Shown one piece after another: positions 22,093-39,961 of a DNA stretch of 64,000 bases. How positions within the stretch are numbered: the first letter of the stretch is position 1; the number at the start of each line of letters is the position of its first letter. The notes below the pieces were generated by a model that made no database searches, was not told the origin of the DNA, and was given only the letters and a program-made list of their open reading frames with translations. A program made the position numbers and the translations under genes. Source of the stretch: Microbacterium ureisolvens (GTDB lineage Bacteria > Actinomycetota > Actinomycetes > Actinomycetales > Microbacteriaceae); the NCBI RefSeq assembly GCF_019511645.1, contig NZ_JAEUAX010000004.1, positions 62,001 through 126,000 of the forward strand, read 5' to 3'.

Positions 22093-22139
22093 GTCGCTCG
22101 GCACACCACCGATCTGGATTTCCGGCCACCGGTTCAGAT

Positions 22140-22162
22140 ATCAGGAAGATAACCTGCCTGAT
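22140..22162. promoter_or_regulatory. Candidate operator between the WYL regulator and epoxide hydrolase genes
   Basis: A perfect 6-bp dyad, ATCAGG at 22140-22145 and CCTGAT at 22157-22162, separated by 11 bases. It covers the spacer region just upstream of the TAACGT -10 box (22170-22175) of the epoxide hydrolase gene, so a protein bound here could block that promoter. The obvious candidate is the WYL regulator encoded divergently. Confidence 0.5.
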
Positions 22163-33896: not shown

Positions 33897-34805
33897 TCAG
33901 GGCCGTTTGCGTGAGAACGCCTCGAGCCGTTCCTCGGGCGTGAGCCGCGACATCCGCTCGACCCATTCCGCAGAGAAGACGTCGCCGGTCGGCGCCTCGG
34001 ACACGGGCACGACGGCGTGAGTGATCGTGTCGTCGTACACGTGCACGAGGTGGAACGACTGGCCGGCGTCCATGCCGTTGACGTCCACCGCGGGGCGCGC
34101 GAGGTTCATCGTGTAGCAGGTGGCCGCGGCGACGCTCACCGGGACGCCCGCGAACGTGCCGCTCGTGGAGTAGTGCAGGTGCCCCGCGAGGATCGCGCGC
34201 ACATCGGTGCCGGCGATCACGTCGGCGAGCCTTCCCTGGTCGCGCAGCTCCAGGATGTCGAACAGCGGCACGTGCGACGGCAGCGGCGGATGGTGCAGCG
34301 CGAGGATCGTTCCGAGCGGTGCCGGCGTCGCCAGCTCGCGGCCCAGCCACTCGAGCTGCCCGTGGTCGAGGTCGCCGTGATGCCAGCCGGGGACGGTCGA
34401 GTCGAGGCCGATGAGCCGCAGTCCCCCGAGATCCCAGACTCCCGTGACGGGCTCTTCCGTGGCCTCGAGCCCGAGCAGGTCGCGGCGAAGCGCCGGGCGC
34501 TCGTCATGGTTGCCGGCGAGCCACACCACCGGCGCGCCGAGTCGCTCCGCGACCGGCTCCACCGCAGCGCGCAGCGCCGCGTACGCGTCAGGCTCGCCGA
34601 GATCCGTCAGGTCGCCAGTGAAGACGATGGCATCGGGATGGATGCCGGTGGCCTCGACCGCCTCGAGGGCACGGGCGAGATTCGCCGCGGTGTCGAAACG
34701 GCCGCCGAGCGGCACGTTGCCCGCGAGCAGGTGCGTGTCGCTCACGTGCAGCAGCGTGCGTCTGGCGGGCGGGTACTGACCGAACTGCACGGATGCCGCG
34801 TCCAT
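33897..34805 (-). CDS. CpdA-like metallophosphoesterase
   Basis: 302 residues of the calcineurin-like fold, closest to class III cyclic-AMP phosphodiesterases. Metal-site motifs in order: LLHVSDTHLLAG (D23, H25), VFTGDLTDLGEP, WLAGNHDERPAL, ILALHHPPLPS and ILAGHLHYSTSG. The role could be cAMP hydrolysis or another phosphodiester; the family is diverse. The -10 box TAGACT lies at 34812-34817 and the ATG follows six bases later, so the transcript is leaderless. The first three bases of this -10 box are the TAG stop codon of the upstream gene. Confidence 0.9.
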   Translation of the reverse strand: MDAASVQFGQYPPARRTLLHVSDTHLLAGNVPLGGRFDTAANLARALEAVEATGIHPDAIVFTGDLTDLGEPDAYAALRAAVEPVAERLGAPVVWLAGNHDERPALRRDLLGLEATEEPVTGVWDLGGLRLIGLDSTVPGWHHGDLDHGQLEWLGRELATPAPLGTILALHHPPLPSHVPLFDILELRDQGRLADVIAGTDVRAILAGHLHYSTSGTFAGVPVSVAAATCYTMNLARPAVDVNGMDAGQSFHLVHVYDDTITHAVVPVSEAPTGDVFSAEWVERMSRLTPEERLEAFSRKRP

Positions 34806-34814
34806 GCGGCGAGT

Positions 34815-37800
34815 CTATTGGGGCAACGCGGACCGAGTGTCCTTCGCGCAGGCGGGTTCGTACGGCCGATCAGCGAAGACGTCATGCCACTCTTGCGCGC
34901 TCAGGCCGCGCCCTGCGACGGCACAGGCTCGCTGGACCCAGAGGTCGGGGTCTGCAGAGACCCTCACGCGGCCGCCTTCCGGGAGGTCGTAGACGAGGGT
35001 GCGCTCGTCGTCCGGAAGGGGCAGGCCGTCGAGACCTCTGACCACATGGAACGACTCGGTCCAATCGTCCAGGATCCACGTGAACAGCGCCCCGTCCTTG
35101 CCTGCCGTCACGAGTTCGCCCGTCGGAAGGAACGCCACGGCACGCACGGTGTCGAGGTGGCCGTCGAGGACCTCCTCGAGGTCTCCGTTGCTCGTGCGCC
35201 AGACCAGCGCGCGGTCACCCGCGATCGTCGCGACGTGGGTGCCGTCAGGGCTGAACGCGCCGTCCACGACGGGGTCGTCCATCTGGAGCAGCCGCGATCG
35301 AGCCGGATCCGCCAGGTCGACGATGCGCGCCGCGTGGCGACCTTGCCTGACGAGCAGGGTCTGCCCATGGGGGTTCACTGCGAGCAGCCCGTCCCCTTCG
35401 ATCTCGTCGATGAGCGCGCCATTCGCGGTGTCGAACACGGCGGTAGGACCGAATCCGCTCGCGTACAGCCTCGTCCCGTCGGCGGAGAACCGCACCCTTC
35501 CGAACGAGTCCGCCCAGCTCGGGGGTCCGGGATTGGTGCCCGCTCGCGGGAGGTGGAGCATGAAGGCCTCGTCCGGTGCGTTCACCCTCCACATCGCGAC
35601 GTTCGCGCCCTCGGCCGCCCACGGAAGGGGCGCGATGATCGCCGCCAGCGACTCGTCCCGCGAGTACTCGATGTCGAGCACCTCCGAGTCGAACTCGGGG
35701 AAGGTCAGCTCGCGAGTTCGGGGGCCCCAGGAGTCGAGCGTGCGAAGGTCAGGTGCTTCGCACCAGCCGGAGCCACCGCAATCGCCCTGCATCACGCTCA
35801 GCGCGATCCGCCCGCCCGGTCCCTCCGCCGCGTCGAGGACGATCGCTCCCCCCACGTCCGCCGACGCGACCTGCATCCCCTTCTCCAGATCGACGACGCT
35901 CGCGCTGATCGTGTCGTCGATGACCAGCGCGATGGAATCGTCGGCGCCGAGCATCATCGTCTCGATGCCCATGCCATCGCTCAATCGCGTCACGCTCGCG
36001 ATGCGCGGGCTGCGGCCCATGACATCGAGGAGAGATCTTCGTGTCGTCGGCGCGTCCCACAGACCGATCGCCTCCACCGCCAAGAGGAGTGCGCGTTCGT
36101 AAACGGGCTCTGCGAGGGCGAGCGCGGAAACCCGCCGCGCATCGTCCATCACCGCCCGCTTGTTCGCCTCCGACGTCTGCACCGCCGCGAGGGCACCGGC
36201 CGCGAGCGCGACCACTGCGAGCGCCGCCGTCGCTCCGGCCAGCCATCGCAGACGCCGGACCGAGCGTCGTTCCCTCTGCAGCTGACGCCGTGTCGCGTCG
36301 AGATCCTCCGCCTCTCGCTGGACCGAGGCGTCCAGGAACGCGACCTCCACCGGTGCGAGCACCGGCCGCGCCGACTCTCGCCACTGAACCGCCGCGCCCA
36401 GTCGGCCCCCACGATAGAGCTCGCTGTCGGGTCGCCTCATCTCCTCCCACGCGGTCGCCGCGGCGTTGAGATGACGCATGGTTCGCTGCCCCTCGACGTC
36501 GTCGGCGAGCCACTCGTGCAGACGGGGCCATTCGCGGGCGACGGCCTCGTGCGCGAGCTGGTAGGAGTCCTCGTCGCTGGTCACGAGCCGGGCATCCACC
36601 AATCGTTCGGCCACGCGCGCGTGCGCCCCATCCACCGCGACGGTCGCGCGGCTCACCCGCTGACAGATGACGCCGCCGTCTCGGGAAGGCTCGACGAGTC
36701 GCAGGAGGATGTCGCGCACCAGCCGCGCCTCGTCGCCCCGCAGGTCCGCGAACATCTCCTCGGCGGTCTGGGCGACGGCGCCGTCGATCTCCCCTGAGGC
36801 GCGGTAGCCGTCGATACTCAGCACCCGTCCCTCGCGTCGCTGCCAGACCTGATACAGCGCGTGCGAGAGCAGGGGCAGGCTGCGCCCGTCGGCATCACGC
36901 ACCAGCACCTCCACCAGCCCCGGCTCGAGAATCAGTCCCGCCTGCCGCGCGGGCTTCTCGATCACCGCGCGCAGGCCGTCGGCCGCGAGCGGACCCAGCA
37001 TCATGAGGTGCGCCTGAATGAGGCCCGCGAAGCCGTGGTGGTCGGCGAGATCGCCCAGCCGATCCGCGCGGATCGCCATCACGAGCGGACCTTGGAACAC
37101 CAGTCGACCGAGCTCCTCGAAGAACTGGCGAGTCTGGTCCGAGTCGTCGATGGCGAACGCCTGCTCGCACTGGTCGACGATCAGCAGAGACTCGGAATCG
37201 TGCGCCGCGAGTCCGCGCAGCATCTCCAGAGGTCGCTCGCCGGGGGTGACGATCGTCACGCGCCTGCCCTGCGCCGCGAGGTGCGCGGCGATCCCCGCAC
37301 GAACGAAGGAAGACTTGCCGACCCCGGAGGATCCCGAGACGACGAGCACGGCGTGCCGCTCGAGCTCCTGAAGTGCATGGTCGAGCTCCTCTTCGCGACC
37401 GAAGTACCGTTCCCCGTCGTCCATCCCCGCCGGCGGGAGACCGAAGTACGGACAGTCGGCGCTCCCCGCTCGGAACACGGCAGAGGACTGCAGTGCGGGA
37501 TCCTGCCGGAGGATCGCCTGCTCGAGGGTCGCGAGTTCCACGCACGGGTCGAGGCCGAGCTCGGCGGCGAGCAGTTCTCGTCCACGACGGATCGTGGCCA
37601 GGGCGTCCGCCTGGCGCCCCTGGCGATACTGTGCGAGACCGAGGATCACCCAGCGGCGTTCGCGCATGGGCGATTCCGCCACCCGGGCACGCGCTTCAGC
37701 AGCTGCGTCGATCAGGTCTCCCGACTGCAGCCGCGCCTCCAACAGAGATTCCTCCGCGGCGAGGCGGATCTCGTCGAGCCGATCGGCCTCGATGCGCGCG

Positions 37801-38216
37801 GGCTCCCAATCAGCCAGCTCGGAAAAGGGCTGTCCTCGCCAGAGGCCGAGGGCCTGCGAGAACGAATGGGCAGCGCGATCCGGCTCATCCATCTCGAGCA
37901 GCCGCGACCCGCGCTCGATGAACTGCTCGAATCGAGCGGCGTCGAGGTCGACGGCGGTGGGCGCGAGCATGTACCCCGCCGCCGTCGTCTCGATCGCGGA
38001 CGCGGGCAGCTGCCGCCGCAGTCGCATGATGCAGCCAGGGATCACCTTCGACCATGAAGCGGGGGGCGCGTCCCCCCAGACCGCGGTCGCGAACGACTCG
38101 AGCGTGACCGCTCTCCCGATCCGCGCCGCGAGCGCGCCCAGCACGAGACGATCACGAGGCGCGAGGGCGATCCGGCCGTCGTCGAGAGTCACTGCCCCCA
38201 GCACGCGGAGGTCCAT
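34815..38216 (-). CDS. SARP/BTAD-type regulator fused to a STAND NTPase and a beta-propeller
   Basis: 1,133 residues. N-terminal OmpR-like DNA-binding domain (1-90, MDLRVLGAVTLDDGRIAL), BTAD helical domain (95-235, DLDAARFEQFIERGSRLLE), STAND NTPase (265-620) with Walker A GSSGVGKSS at 295-303 and Walker B LLIVDQCEQ near 348, one membrane-like helix at about 655-680 (WLAGATAALAVVALAAGALAAV), and a WD40-like propeller (about 720-1110) with repeats such as GHLDTVRAVAFLPTGELVTAGKDGALFTW. Such proteins act as large signal-responsive regulators. The ATG at 38216 is six bases after CACAGT, with TTGACG 17 bases upstream as -35. Two 14-bp repeats precede the promoter. Confidence 0.92.
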   Translation of the reverse strand: MDLRVLGAVTLDDGRIALAPRDRLVLGALAARIGRAVTLESFATAVWGDAPPASWSKVIPGCIMRLRRQLPASAIETTAAGYMLAPTAVDLDAARFEQFIERGSRLLEMDEPDRAAHSFSQALGLWRGQPFSELADWEPARIEADRLDEIRLAAEESLLEARLQSGDLIDAAAEARARVAESPMRERRWVILGLAQYRQGRQADALATIRRGRELLAAELGLDPCVELATLEQAILRQDPALQSSAVFRAGSADCPYFGLPPAGMDDGERYFGREEELDHALQELERHAVLVVSGSSGVGKSSFVRAGIAAHLAAQGRRVTIVTPGERPLEMLRGLAAHDSESLLIVDQCEQAFAIDDSDQTRQFFEELGRLVFQGPLVMAIRADRLGDLADHHGFAGLIQAHLMMLGPLAADGLRAVIEKPARQAGLILEPGLVEVLVRDADGRSLPLLSHALYQVWQRREGRVLSIDGYRASGEIDGAVAQTAEEMFADLRGDEARLVRDILLRLVEPSRDGGVICQRVSRATVAVDGAHARVAERLVDARLVTSDEDSYQLAHEAVAREWPRLHEWLADDVEGQRTMRHLNAAATAWEEMRRPDSELYRGGRLGAAVQWRESARPVLAPVEVAFLDASVQREAEDLDATRRQLQRERRSVRRLRWLAGATAALAVVALAAGALAAVQTSEANKRAVMDDARRVSALALAEPVYERALLLAVEAIGLWDAPTTRRSLLDVMGRSPRIASVTRLSDGMGIETMMLGADDSIALVIDDTISASVVDLEKGMQVASADVGGAIVLDAAEGPGGRIALSVMQGDCGGSGWCEAPDLRTLDSWGPRTRELTFPEFDSEVLDIEYSRDESLAAIIAPLPWAAEGANVAMWRVNAPDEAFMLHLPRAGTNPGPPSWADSFGRVRFSADGTRLYASGFGPTAVFDTANGALIDEIEGDGLLAVNPHGQTLLVRQGRHAARIVDLADPARSRLLQMDDPVVDGAFSPDGTHVATIAGDRALVWRTSNGDLEEVLDGHLDTVRAVAFLPTGELVTAGKDGALFTWILDDWTESFHVVRGLDGLPLPDDERTLVYDLPEGGRVRVSADPDLWVQRACAVAGRGLSAQEWHDVFADRPYEPACAKDTRSALPQ

Positions 38217-38245
38217 GACGACACTGTGAAACCCGCGCCGGTTTC

Positions 38246-38304
38246 CGTCAAGGACCCTGATATCAGGCTGATACCCGCGCCAGGTCGGCCGATATCAGAC
38301 TGAT
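38246..38304. promoter_or_regulatory. Promoter and paired repeats upstream of the SARP/STAND gene
   Basis: On the minus strand the -35 TTGACG (38246-38251), a 17-base spacer and CACAGT lead into the ATG at 38216. Upstream are two copies of a 14-bp word: GATATCAGGCTGAT at 38259-38272 and GATATCAGACTGAT at 38291-38304, 13 of 14 bases alike. Their starts are 32 bp apart, three helical turns, and centres lie about 49 and 81 bases before the start, typical for activator sites. Confidence 0.6.
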
Positions 38305-38339
38305 GGATCTGGCCCGCGGAACGGGGGGCTTCGGGTTCC

Positions 38340-38669
38340 TCAGTGGTTGAAGACGATGAGAAGCAGGCCGCCGAGCACCGCCGCGGCGCAGACAGCGAAG
38401 CACGCGTATGCGCCGACGAGCGCGAAGCGCTTCTGCCCTTCGGTGAGCGGGTTGCGCTTCGCCGCCTTCGCAGCGGCCTTCTCGGCGCGCCGCGCCTCCT
38501 TCTCGGAGATGACGGTGATGGCGTCGGTGAACTCCGCCGGGGCGACCACGGGAGGACGCCCCGCACGTACCAGCAGCCGGAGCCCCAGCGCGTAGAAACC
38601 GACCACAACGACAGCAGAGGTGAACGCCGCGACGAAAACCTGAACGAAGGCGAGCCAGTTGATGGTCAT
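38340..38669 (-). CDS. Small two-helix membrane protein coupled to pit
   Basis: 109 residues, a membrane helix at each end (FVQVFVAAFTSAVVVVGFYALGLRLLV and LVGAYACFAVCAAAVLGGLLLIVF) and a charged, lysine-rich middle (SEKEARRAEKAAAKAAKRNPLTEGQKRF). It starts four bases inside the end of the phosphate transporter, so it is in the same operon. Small membrane proteins behind pit genes occur in related actinobacteria by recollection; a role as a transporter accessory is plausible but unproven. Confidence 0.75.
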   Translation of the reverse strand: MTINWLAFVQVFVAAFTSAVVVVGFYALGLRLLVRAGRPPVVAPAEFTDAITVISEKEARRAEKAAAKAAKRNPLTEGQKRFALVGAYACFAVCAAAVLGGLLLIVFNH

Positions 38670-39961
38670 CGCGGGCCTCCGTTCTTCGGCCGGTTCTCGG
38701 ATCGCCCGGCTGCCTTGGCGGCCTTCTTGGCCGCCATCTCCGCCGCGGCGACCCGGCGCGCCTCCTCGCGCGCGATGGCACGCTGGCGGCGTGTGGGCGG
38801 CGGGTTGCGCTTGACCTTCACGGCGCGACCGGAGTCGGCCACCTCGCTCATCGCATTCGACGCGGTGACCTCATCGCGGCGGGAGCGCAGGAAGAGCGCC
38901 AGGATGATCGCGACCGCGAGGACGGCGTCGATGATGACGCCCCACACGGGGAGCCACACCACGATGAGTGCCGCAGCCGCCCCCACGGCACCGGCCGCAG
39001 GCAGCGTGAGGATCCAGCCCACCATGATGCGGCCGGCGGTGCGCCACCGCACCTGCGAGCCACGGCGTCCGAGGCCCGAGCCGATGACCGAGCCGGACGC
39101 GACCTGCGTGGTCGACAGCGCGAAGCCCAGTGCGCTCGAGGCGAGGATCGTGGACGCCGTCGACGCCTCGGCGGAGAAGCCCTGCGCGGGCTTCACCTCG
39201 GTGAGACCCTTGCCGAGCGTGCGGATGATGCGCCAGCCGCCCATGTAGGTGCCGAGCGCGATCGTGATCGCACACGCGAACACGACCCAGGTCTGCGGCT
39301 CGGGGTTCGAGGCCGACTGCAGGCCCGCGGTGATGAGGAGGAGGGTGATGATGCCCATCGTCTTCTGCGCATCGTTCGTGCCGTGGGCGAGCGCCACCAG
39401 CGACGACGTGAAGATCTGGCCGAACCGGAACCCGTCGCGCCCGTCGGGCTTGCTGTCGTAGCGCCGCGTGAGCACGTAGGCGAGCTTCGTCGCGGTGAAC
39501 GCGATCACACCGGCCGTGACCGGCGCGATGAACGCCGGCAGGATCACCTTCGACATCACGACGCCGAAGTTCACCGCCGTGACGCCCACGCCGACGATCG
39601 TCGCGCCGATGAGGCCGCCGAACAGTGCATGCGACGACGACGAGGGAAGACCCAGCAGCCAGGTGAGCATGTTCCACGTGATGGCGCCGATGAGGCCGGC
39701 GAGGATGATCTCGGGGAAGATGTTCGCCGAGATCTGATCCTCATTGATGATGCCGCCTGAGATCGTCTGGGCGACCTCCGTCGACAGGAATGCGCCGACC
39801 AGATTGAGGACGGCGGCGAGGAGTACAGCGGTCTTGGGCTTGAGCGCGCCGGTCGCGATCGGCGTCGCCATCGCGTTCGCGGTGTCATGGAAGCCGTTCG
39901 TGAAATCGAAGAACAGCGCGAGCGCGATCACCAGAACGATGATGAGGGTTGCGGTTTCCAC
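38666..39961 (-). CDS. pit: Low-affinity inorganic phosphate transporter, PiT family
   Basis: 431 residues, about ten membrane segments. The two PiT repeats are visible: FFDFTNGFHDTANAMATPIATGAL near the start and ALAHGTNDAQKTMGIITLLLITAG in the second half, with the signatures G-x-x-D-x-A-N-A and G-x-N-D-x-x-K. It imports phosphate with protons or divalent metal. The C terminus is a basic, alanine/lysine-rich tail. The region before the start includes a possible PHO box at 40027-40048. Confidence 0.94.
   Translation of the reverse strand: METATLIIVLVIALALFFDFTNGFHDTANAMATPIATGALKPKTAVLLAAVLNLVGAFLSTEVAQTISGGIINEDQISANIFPEIILAGLIGAITWNMLTWLLGLPSSSSHALFGGLIGATIVGVGVTAVNFGVVMSKVILPAFIAPVTAGVIAFTATKLAYVLTRRYDSKPDGRDGFRFGQIFTSSLVALAHGTNDAQKTMGIITLLLITAGLQSASNPEPQTWVVFACAITIALGTYMGGWRIIRTLGKGLTEVKPAQGFSAEASTASTILASSALGFALSTTQVASGSVIGSGLGRRGSQVRWRTAGRIMVGWILTLPAAGAVGAAAALIVVWLPVWGVIIDAVLAVAIILALFLRSRRDEVTASNAMSEVADSGRAVKVKRNPPPTRRQRAIAREEARRVAAAEMAAKKAAKAAGRSENRPKNGGPR

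Follow-up and report, generated by a model that had tools for sequence, protein, structure and literature searches.

A conserved array of 11-bp-spaced half-sites, a candidate self-operator, at the predicted leaderless promoter of an actinobacterial SARP-nSTAND1-WD40 gene

A SARP-nSTAND1-WD40 gene and its promoter

We analyzed a 64,000-nt stretch of the Microbacterium ureisolvens genome (hereafter the window), whose minus strand carries the gene of a 1133-aa SARP-nSTAND1-WD40 regulator (34815-38216, ATG at 38216). Pfam identified a BTAD domain (5.7e-32, 111.5 bits against a cut-off of 22.1), an nSTAND1 NTPase at residues 256-597 (PF20703, 1.3e-89, above cut-off; 36426-37451, minus strand) and a propeller model. 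The protein has the family marks of a SARP, namely an N-terminal OmpR-type winged helix followed by BTAD, with Trans_reg_C at 25.3 bits and thus just under its cut-off of 26.2, and heptamer-like direct repeats with an 11-bp period at the candidate target promoter. It aligned with AfsR in phmmer (E 7e-24) and fell outside the AfsR equivalog NF053617 of NCBIfam (128.7 bits against a cut-off of 1430), with nSTAND1 and WD40 domains in place of that equivalog's NB-ARC and TPR. The nearest named relative of the protein is from Microbacterium sp. Leaf288, at 84-85% identity.

We utilized an AlphaFold model built with 13 sequences (mean pLDDT 66.6, pTM 0.43). It placed a recognition helix at residues 55-69 (38010-38054, minus strand), supported by the phmmer alignment to AfsR, and a β-propeller at residues about 739-1086 (34959-36002, minus strand). 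Foldseek matched the propeller to WD40 proteins (TMt up to 0.81, 5yzv); for the chain, the top match was Apaf-1 (E 3e-16), with a whole-chain TM-score of only about 0.2. A predicted transmembrane segment lies at residues 661-679 (36180-36236, minus strand; hydropathy 2.13), with a net charge of +5 before it and 0 after it. The hydropathy peak near residue 660 was present in all 63 homologues of at least 720 aa, being the strongest peak in 62 and the second in L120, and in those 62 the net charge was +3 to +7 before the segment and -3 to +2 after it. Because the positive charge precedes the segment, an N-inside, C-outside orientation is likely. Further, mostly weaker peaks were found in 24 of the 63 homologues and none in the protein of the window. 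The chain unites a DNA-binding domain and a transmembrane helix predicted from hydropathy and charge, as transmembrane regulators do, and it is probably anchored in the membrane by this one helix, with the SARP and nSTAND1 domains inside and the propeller outside.

The promoter consists of a TTGACG -35 box (38246-38251, minus strand, read 38251-38246) and a CACAGT -10 box (38223-38228, minus strand, read 38228-38223), the latter 17 bp after the -35 box and 6 nt before the ATG. The A of the ATG (38216) coincides with the expected +1, and the leaderless transcript proposed by a first-pass annotation of this DNA therefore fits. Across the family, 65 of 72 promoters have TTGAC 35 or 36 nt upstream of the start codon, so a leaderless architecture appears to be shared by nearly the whole family. 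The -10 boxes of the family have A at the second and T at the sixth position in 63 of 67 cases each. In the window, the -10 box is poor, and the -35 box is good and near consensus.

Upstream of this promoter, the first-pass annotation had described two 14-bp repeats, 32 bp apart and centred at about -49 and -81, as a SARP autoregulation site. Both repeats are there, GATATCAGGCTGAT at 38259-38272 and GATATCAGACTGAT at 38291-38304 (plus strand), identical at 13 of 14 positions, with measured centres of about -49.5 and -81.5; the window holds no other exact copies. Each 14-mer, however, runs from within one half-site across a spacer into its neighbour, the first taking in parts of the half-sites at -59 and -48 and the second parts of those at -91 and -80. 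On the minus strand, the region reads TCCATCA-GTCT-GATATCG-N14-GGTATCA-GCCT-GATATCA-GGGTCC-TTGACG-N17-CACAGT-GTCGTC-ATG. The half-sites are GATATCA at -48 (38258-38264), GGTATCA at -59 (38269-38275), 11 bp from the -48 copy and aligned with it as a pair across the family, and GATATCG at -80 (38290-38296), 21 bp above the -59 copy, with spacings of 21/22 and 32/33 recurring in the family. A fourth, degenerate copy, TCCATCA at -91 (38301-38307), is a weak match 11 bp above the -80 copy, and we assigned it because its phase fits and because relatives such as L078-L083 (L numbers denote our loci) carry better copies there. The repeat unit is therefore a half-site of about 7 bp every 11 bp, the classical SARP geometry, and the 32-bp offset, once taken as a key spacing of three helical turns, is the distance between two half-site pairs (21 + 11). 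The 14-mer is not conserved among homologous promoters, and we discarded it as the binding unit. The -48 half-site ends 6 bp before TTGACG and does not overlap the -35 box, unlike the usual SARP case.

In dinucleotide shuffles of the 123-bp intergenic region (n = 2000), a 14-mer pair with at most one mismatch and within 60 bp arose once. The 4.33-Mb genome contained seven matches to TATCAGNCTGAT with at most one mismatch, three of them exact, all on the two 14-mer copies. Within the window, eight matches to the 14-mer with at most three mismatches were found against 3.1 expected, and these mean little because 4 of 100 shuffles also reached eight.

Conservation of the array and its occurrence in genomes

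We analyzed the conservation of the array by scanning genomes with an alignment of seven homologues. The scan gave 77 loci, of which 67 were laid out by start codon and 10 were left out because they are distant or their N-terminus is missing. The final set of 72 non-identical promoters comprised the window, 65 named loci and six paralogues from the genome of the window and its genus-mates; L091, with a mis-anchored start, and L146, outside the family, had been removed, and near-identical species pairs such as L126/L128 stayed in. A 75-row set used for spacings still includes L091, L146 and one duplicate (L039 = L127).

The motif GRTATC-N5-GRTATC (11 or 12 of 12 matches, up to 400 nt upstream) was found in 51 of the 72 SARP-nSTAND1-WD40 homologues and in none of 23 other SARPs, which were read from the match upstream rather than from a verified start codon. 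A looser pair, G-R-T-A-Y-(C/T/G), occurred in 61 of 72 promoters versus 1.5 in dinucleotide shuffles; its recognisable form is missing in the remaining 11, which counts against a self-operator. Pairs at spacings of 11, 21, 22, 32 and 33 numbered 50, 27, 24, 26 and 19 in the 75-row set, with at most three pairs at every other spacing from 7 to 35. The best pair mostly began at -59 (27 promoters), -70 (16) or -60 (7), giving two classes one helical turn apart. Bearers of the array include Microbacterium, Arthrobacter, Cryobacterium, Cellulomonas, Agromyces, Nocardioides, Kribbella, Pedococcus and an Acidimicrobiales MAG. The first-pass annotation had made its proposal hinge on conservation upstream of orthologues, and the repeats are conserved there.

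Two side observations concern exceptions among these loci. L132, L134 and L136 keep the leaderless TTGAC promoter, and recognisable repeats were not found in them; they have either lost self-control or use another half-site. In L117, from Arthrobacter nitrophenolicus, the operator is intact and the SARP frame is broken (13 stops in the frame given).

We then searched for the array independently of any protein, using GRTATC-N5-GRTATC-N7-TTGAC at 0 mismatches in two overlapping genome sets, 394 from the class and 396 from the order. The motif occurred at 5 and 9 places, 13 of them distinct and the window among them; a control motif read backward gave none in the same genomes. All 13 places lie 58-60 nt before the start codon of a gene matching the protein of the window. 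In 12 of them (one being the window itself), the match covers about 470-490 residues, nearly all that the locus holds, and in L197 it covers 56 residues only. At least two places are not new species, since the promoters of L191 and L195 are those of L109 and L139. In the genomes searched, the array in its -59/-48 geometry thus appears to mark only the SARP-nSTAND1-WD40 gene type; such a search would miss targets of a different geometry. The reading that the repeats are a chance arrangement without function draws on the looser 14-mer matches that shuffled sequences also reached, and it is practically negligible given the conservation across genera, the spacing peaks, the blind search and the covariation described below.

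A genome search had been recommended to find the regulon of the SARP. In its own genome, the pair alone gave 20 matches with at most one mismatch, and its 0-mismatch places were the promoter in the window, the promoter of a paralogue on contig C1 and one place on C49. The pair plus the -35 box gave eight matches with at most three mismatches, namely the gene's own promoter (0 mismatches) and seven others (all with 3), against one match for the control; the seven may include weak further targets. We saw no regulon, and we rejected a wider one in this genome, where the full form with the -35 box occurs once at 0 mismatches. Across the genus, the pair was present in 38 rows from 19 of 99 genomes. 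Among 28 loci with the pair (L152-L177, L060 and L062), an in-phase TTGAC was found only at the SARP promoters L060, L162 and L164, and a TTGC occurs at L154.

The C1 paralogue (G000:C1:137636-139873, loci L041 and L060) is a second SARP-nSTAND1 gene of the same genome, whose product is 42% identical. It has its own GATATCC array at -70/-59 and the helix residue R60, and the combination of its pair and -35 box occurs nowhere else in the genome. The place on C49 (G000:C49:50573-50589, L062) reads GATATC-N5-GATATCC, 58 and 69 nt before an ATG, and has a TAGACT box in the leaderless position without TTGAC. It is possibly a target of the C1 paralogue, or a chance match.

Half-site bases and the recognition helix

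Next, we compared half-site bases with recognition-helix residues in the 59 of 72 promoters with a clear pair; the 13 unclear ones were dropped. Base 2 was G in both copies in 30 of 30 promoters of Q60 proteins and in 8 of 8 with K60, and A in both copies in 8 of 8 with R60; where the protein has P60, as in the window, 12 of 12 promoters have A in one copy or both, and the one other row has a gap. Residue 60 was by far the strongest link of base 2 (z 20, next residue 9, under a null that ignores relatedness). Inside the P60 clade to which the window belongs, L078 and L090 have Q60 and G at base 2, unlike their P60 relatives, which have A there. L198 of the blind set combines P60 with GATATC; the helix could be read in ten further new rows, all of which pair Q60 with G in both copies. 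Against a strict rule, L087 and L089, both dropped as unclear, have P60 and T at base 2. The sampled proteins are related, and on a tree built from residues 91-650 we counted five changes each for the residue-60 class and for base 2; all three supported independent contrasts agree (five on all branches), which is not significant in a sign test (p 0.25).

Other positions showed similar patterns. Base 5 includes C in 7 of 7 promoters of T61 proteins versus 3 of 52 without T61, and of the seven T61 promoters, six have T at base 6 in both copies and one has it in a single copy. The A61 proteins (n = 2) have GGTATGC in three of four half-sites. At base 7, 21 of 24 promoters with Q58 have C in both copies, and 29 of 30 with V58 have A or G. 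The top-ranked residues for bases 5, 6 and 7 were 60, 22 and 58 and not 61, so clade effects are mixed into these links.

In the phmmer alignment, residues P60, G61 and R65 of the window's protein correspond to R87, T88 and R92 of AfsR. In the passages of the AfsR structure paper that describe contacts, R92 contacts T at position 3 of the upstream repeat, T88 contacts the G opposite position 5, and R87 touches the backbone (PMC10936776). In 59 of 59 promoters, both copies have T at base 3, and judged by alignment, the AfsR base contacts at positions 3 and 5 both fit the half-sites of the family. The link between residue 60 and base 2 is left unexplained by this structure, in which the counterpart R87 touches the backbone and not base 2. 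The covariation of the repeats with the recognition helix points to self-binding.

The same data bear on the possibility that another regulator uses the repeats, for example a protein binding the near-palindrome ATCAG-N-CTGAT that the first-pass annotation had noted in each repeat. The palindrome does occur twice in the window, as claimed, yet among 72 promoters it is present only there (both copies) and in the closest relative, L075 (one copy). Found in 2 of 72 homologous promoters, it is not conserved across the family, and we rejected it as a site. Since the repeats also track the SARP recognition helix and the SARP-nSTAND1-WD40 gene type, a different regulator is very unlikely. What stands of the proposed autoregulation site is a SARP-type operator by the gene's own -35 box, without the 14-mer unit, the three-turn spacing or the palindrome.

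Divergent genes, regulation and related systems

The flanking ORFs were called with a simple gene finder. In 41 of 66 homologues, the opposite strand carries an ORF that begins 120-190 nt away and has both a ribosome site and a hydrophobic N-terminus, compared with 11 of 632 in the same scan elsewhere in the loci; 22 of these 41 ORFs contain a lipobox-like motif, and no such secreted-like ORF was found in the other 25 homologues. We observed these divergent genes for small secreted proteins or lipoproteins about 150 nt upstream of the SARP start in L077, L078-L082, L088 and others, and in several members of the window's clade the product is a lipoprotein of about 245 aa without a Pfam domain. 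Among five divergent proteins searched against Pfam, four had no domain and the fifth had a lipid-attachment motif below cut-off. Inspection by eye revealed no common divergent promoter on the other strand across clades. The divergent product is likely a partner of the sensor.

This arrangement raises the question of whether the operator mainly serves the divergent gene, its place at the SARP promoter being a by-product of a shared intergenic region. The frequency of the divergent ORF, 41 of 66 against 11 of 632, speaks for this reading, but the distance and orientation of the half-sites are fixed relative to the SARP start codon, and 25 homologues show no such ORF. Moreover, L077 has the gene order PiT, orf109, lipoprotein, SARP, phosphodiesterase, and the window, L075 and L076 have the same neighbours minus the lipoprotein and an intact operator in all three, which argues that the operator serves the SARP gene. 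We therefore consider a primary role at the divergent gene improbable. Since the sister L077 and the next clade both have the lipoprotein, its loss from the window, L075 and L076, rather than its never having been present, is the simpler reading.

From the array, its conservation and spacing, the recognition-helix covariation and the single full-form occurrence in the genome, we infer that the SARP domain encoded by the following gene has its operator in these repeats, and that a probably membrane-anchored sensor thereby regulates its own gene positively, a reading to which we assign a probability of about 0.75. The candidate operator at its own promoter would supply one of the two marks of an autoregulated gene, the other being expression that depends on the gene's own product. 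The good half-sites at -48, -59 and -80, with the degenerate one at -91, would form a docking array on which several winged-helix domains sit side by side on one helix face, each on about 7 bp with an 11-bp period. An outside signal, in many relatives perhaps together with the divergently encoded secreted partner, would switch the NTPase, and the SARP domains would then assemble on the array. Because the half-sites sit just above a good -35 box, the bound protein would most likely help RNA polymerase to use a promoter whose -10 box is poor and so increase its own leaderless transcript.

The same binding could have the opposite sign, with the protein repressing its own promoter to keep a membrane sensor low. 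A conserved, near-consensus -35 box may need no activator, and an array adjoining it could block polymerase. On the other hand, the -10 box is poor, characterised SARPs are mainly activators in the passages of a SARP review (PMC10972967), and an operator in a like position, that of PimR, activates according to the relevant passages (PMC5930380). Repression is thus unlikely, and activation is the most likely sign by analogy with these regulators.

The operator appears to follow known SARP geometry. In the published passages on PimR, a SARP-LAL regulator acting at pimM, heptameric direct repeats of CGGCAAG are separated by 4-bp spacers, and class I activation is proposed (PMC5930380). As described there, the PimR operator shares with the present one the 11-bp period, the several copies, the position above and not over the -35 box, and the few targets. 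It differs in its half-site (here GRTATC(A/C/G)) and its target (here the candidate is the regulator's own leaderless promoter), in addition, the pairs here are set at 21/22 bp, and beyond its SARP part the protein is an nSTAND1-TM-propeller chain. AfsR at the afs box of afsS, in the passages of PMC10936776, is likewise an OmpR-type winged helix with BTAD on 11-bp direct repeats, with the matching contacts at positions 3 and 5. However, the afs box is centred at -29.5, over a poor -35 box, whereas the present repeats lie upstream of an intact -35 box, and AfsR carries NOD and TPR domains (PMC10936776).

Transmembrane transcription regulators, as presented in passages of PMC10269533, resemble the protein as one-component regulators with the DNA-binding domain inside and a predicted sensor outside; here, in contrast, a STAND NTPase lies between the DNA-binding domain and the membrane. 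Apaf-1-like STAND proteins also have an NTPase followed by a WD40 propeller, but the present protein has a DNA-binding domain as its effector, and its propeller is set apart from the NTPase by a predicted membrane helix. Passages of the SARP review distinguish small, medium, TPR-type large and LAL types (PMC10972967). The words WD40 and transmembrane are absent from its main text, as are SARP, BTAD and WD40 from the text of PMC10269533, and our searches of open-licence papers found none on a WD40 or membrane-anchored SARP.

A broader interpretation, which we put forward tentatively and at somewhat less than even odds, is that these genes encode a widespread, undescribed class of actinobacterial receptors. 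Such Apaf-1-like SARP-NTPase-propeller proteins would be membrane-anchored, sense the outside with a divergent lipoprotein or secreted partner, and line up as a string on their own half-site array, with essentially one target, the promoter region of the pair. Their specificity would drift with residues such as 60 and 61, and this drift would leave paralogues in one genome, two in the genome of the window, insulated from each other. The cited SARP papers concern Streptomyces antibiotic clusters, and the present branch is found in many other actinobacteria. It shows an apparently dedicated self-operator, a readable helix-to-base link and, between NTPase and sensor, a predicted membrane anchor. 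The residue-base link would allow targets to be predicted from sequence, self-control by a sensor that probably spans the membrane is now directly testable, and with a one-target design one promoter fusion could be enough to uncover the signal to which an otherwise unstudied receptor family responds.

Finally, the regulator gene of the window is flanked by a PiT-type transporter gene and a 109-aa ORF on one side and a metallophosphoesterase gene on the other (33897-34805 and 38343-39961). We searched 27 loci for these neighbours, two of them duplicates and some with short flanks, and rejected the downstream phosphodiesterase as a conserved target, as it adjoins the gene only in L075-L077. The regulator may have inserted between the PiT/109-aa ORF and the metallophosphoesterase, a possibility we suspect because only these three loci have those neighbours. 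Elsewhere in the window, a GTTATC/GATATC repeat at 22125-22153 lies between two divergent ORFs, one reading like an HTH regulator and the other like a hydrolase; it looks like the site of a different regulator.
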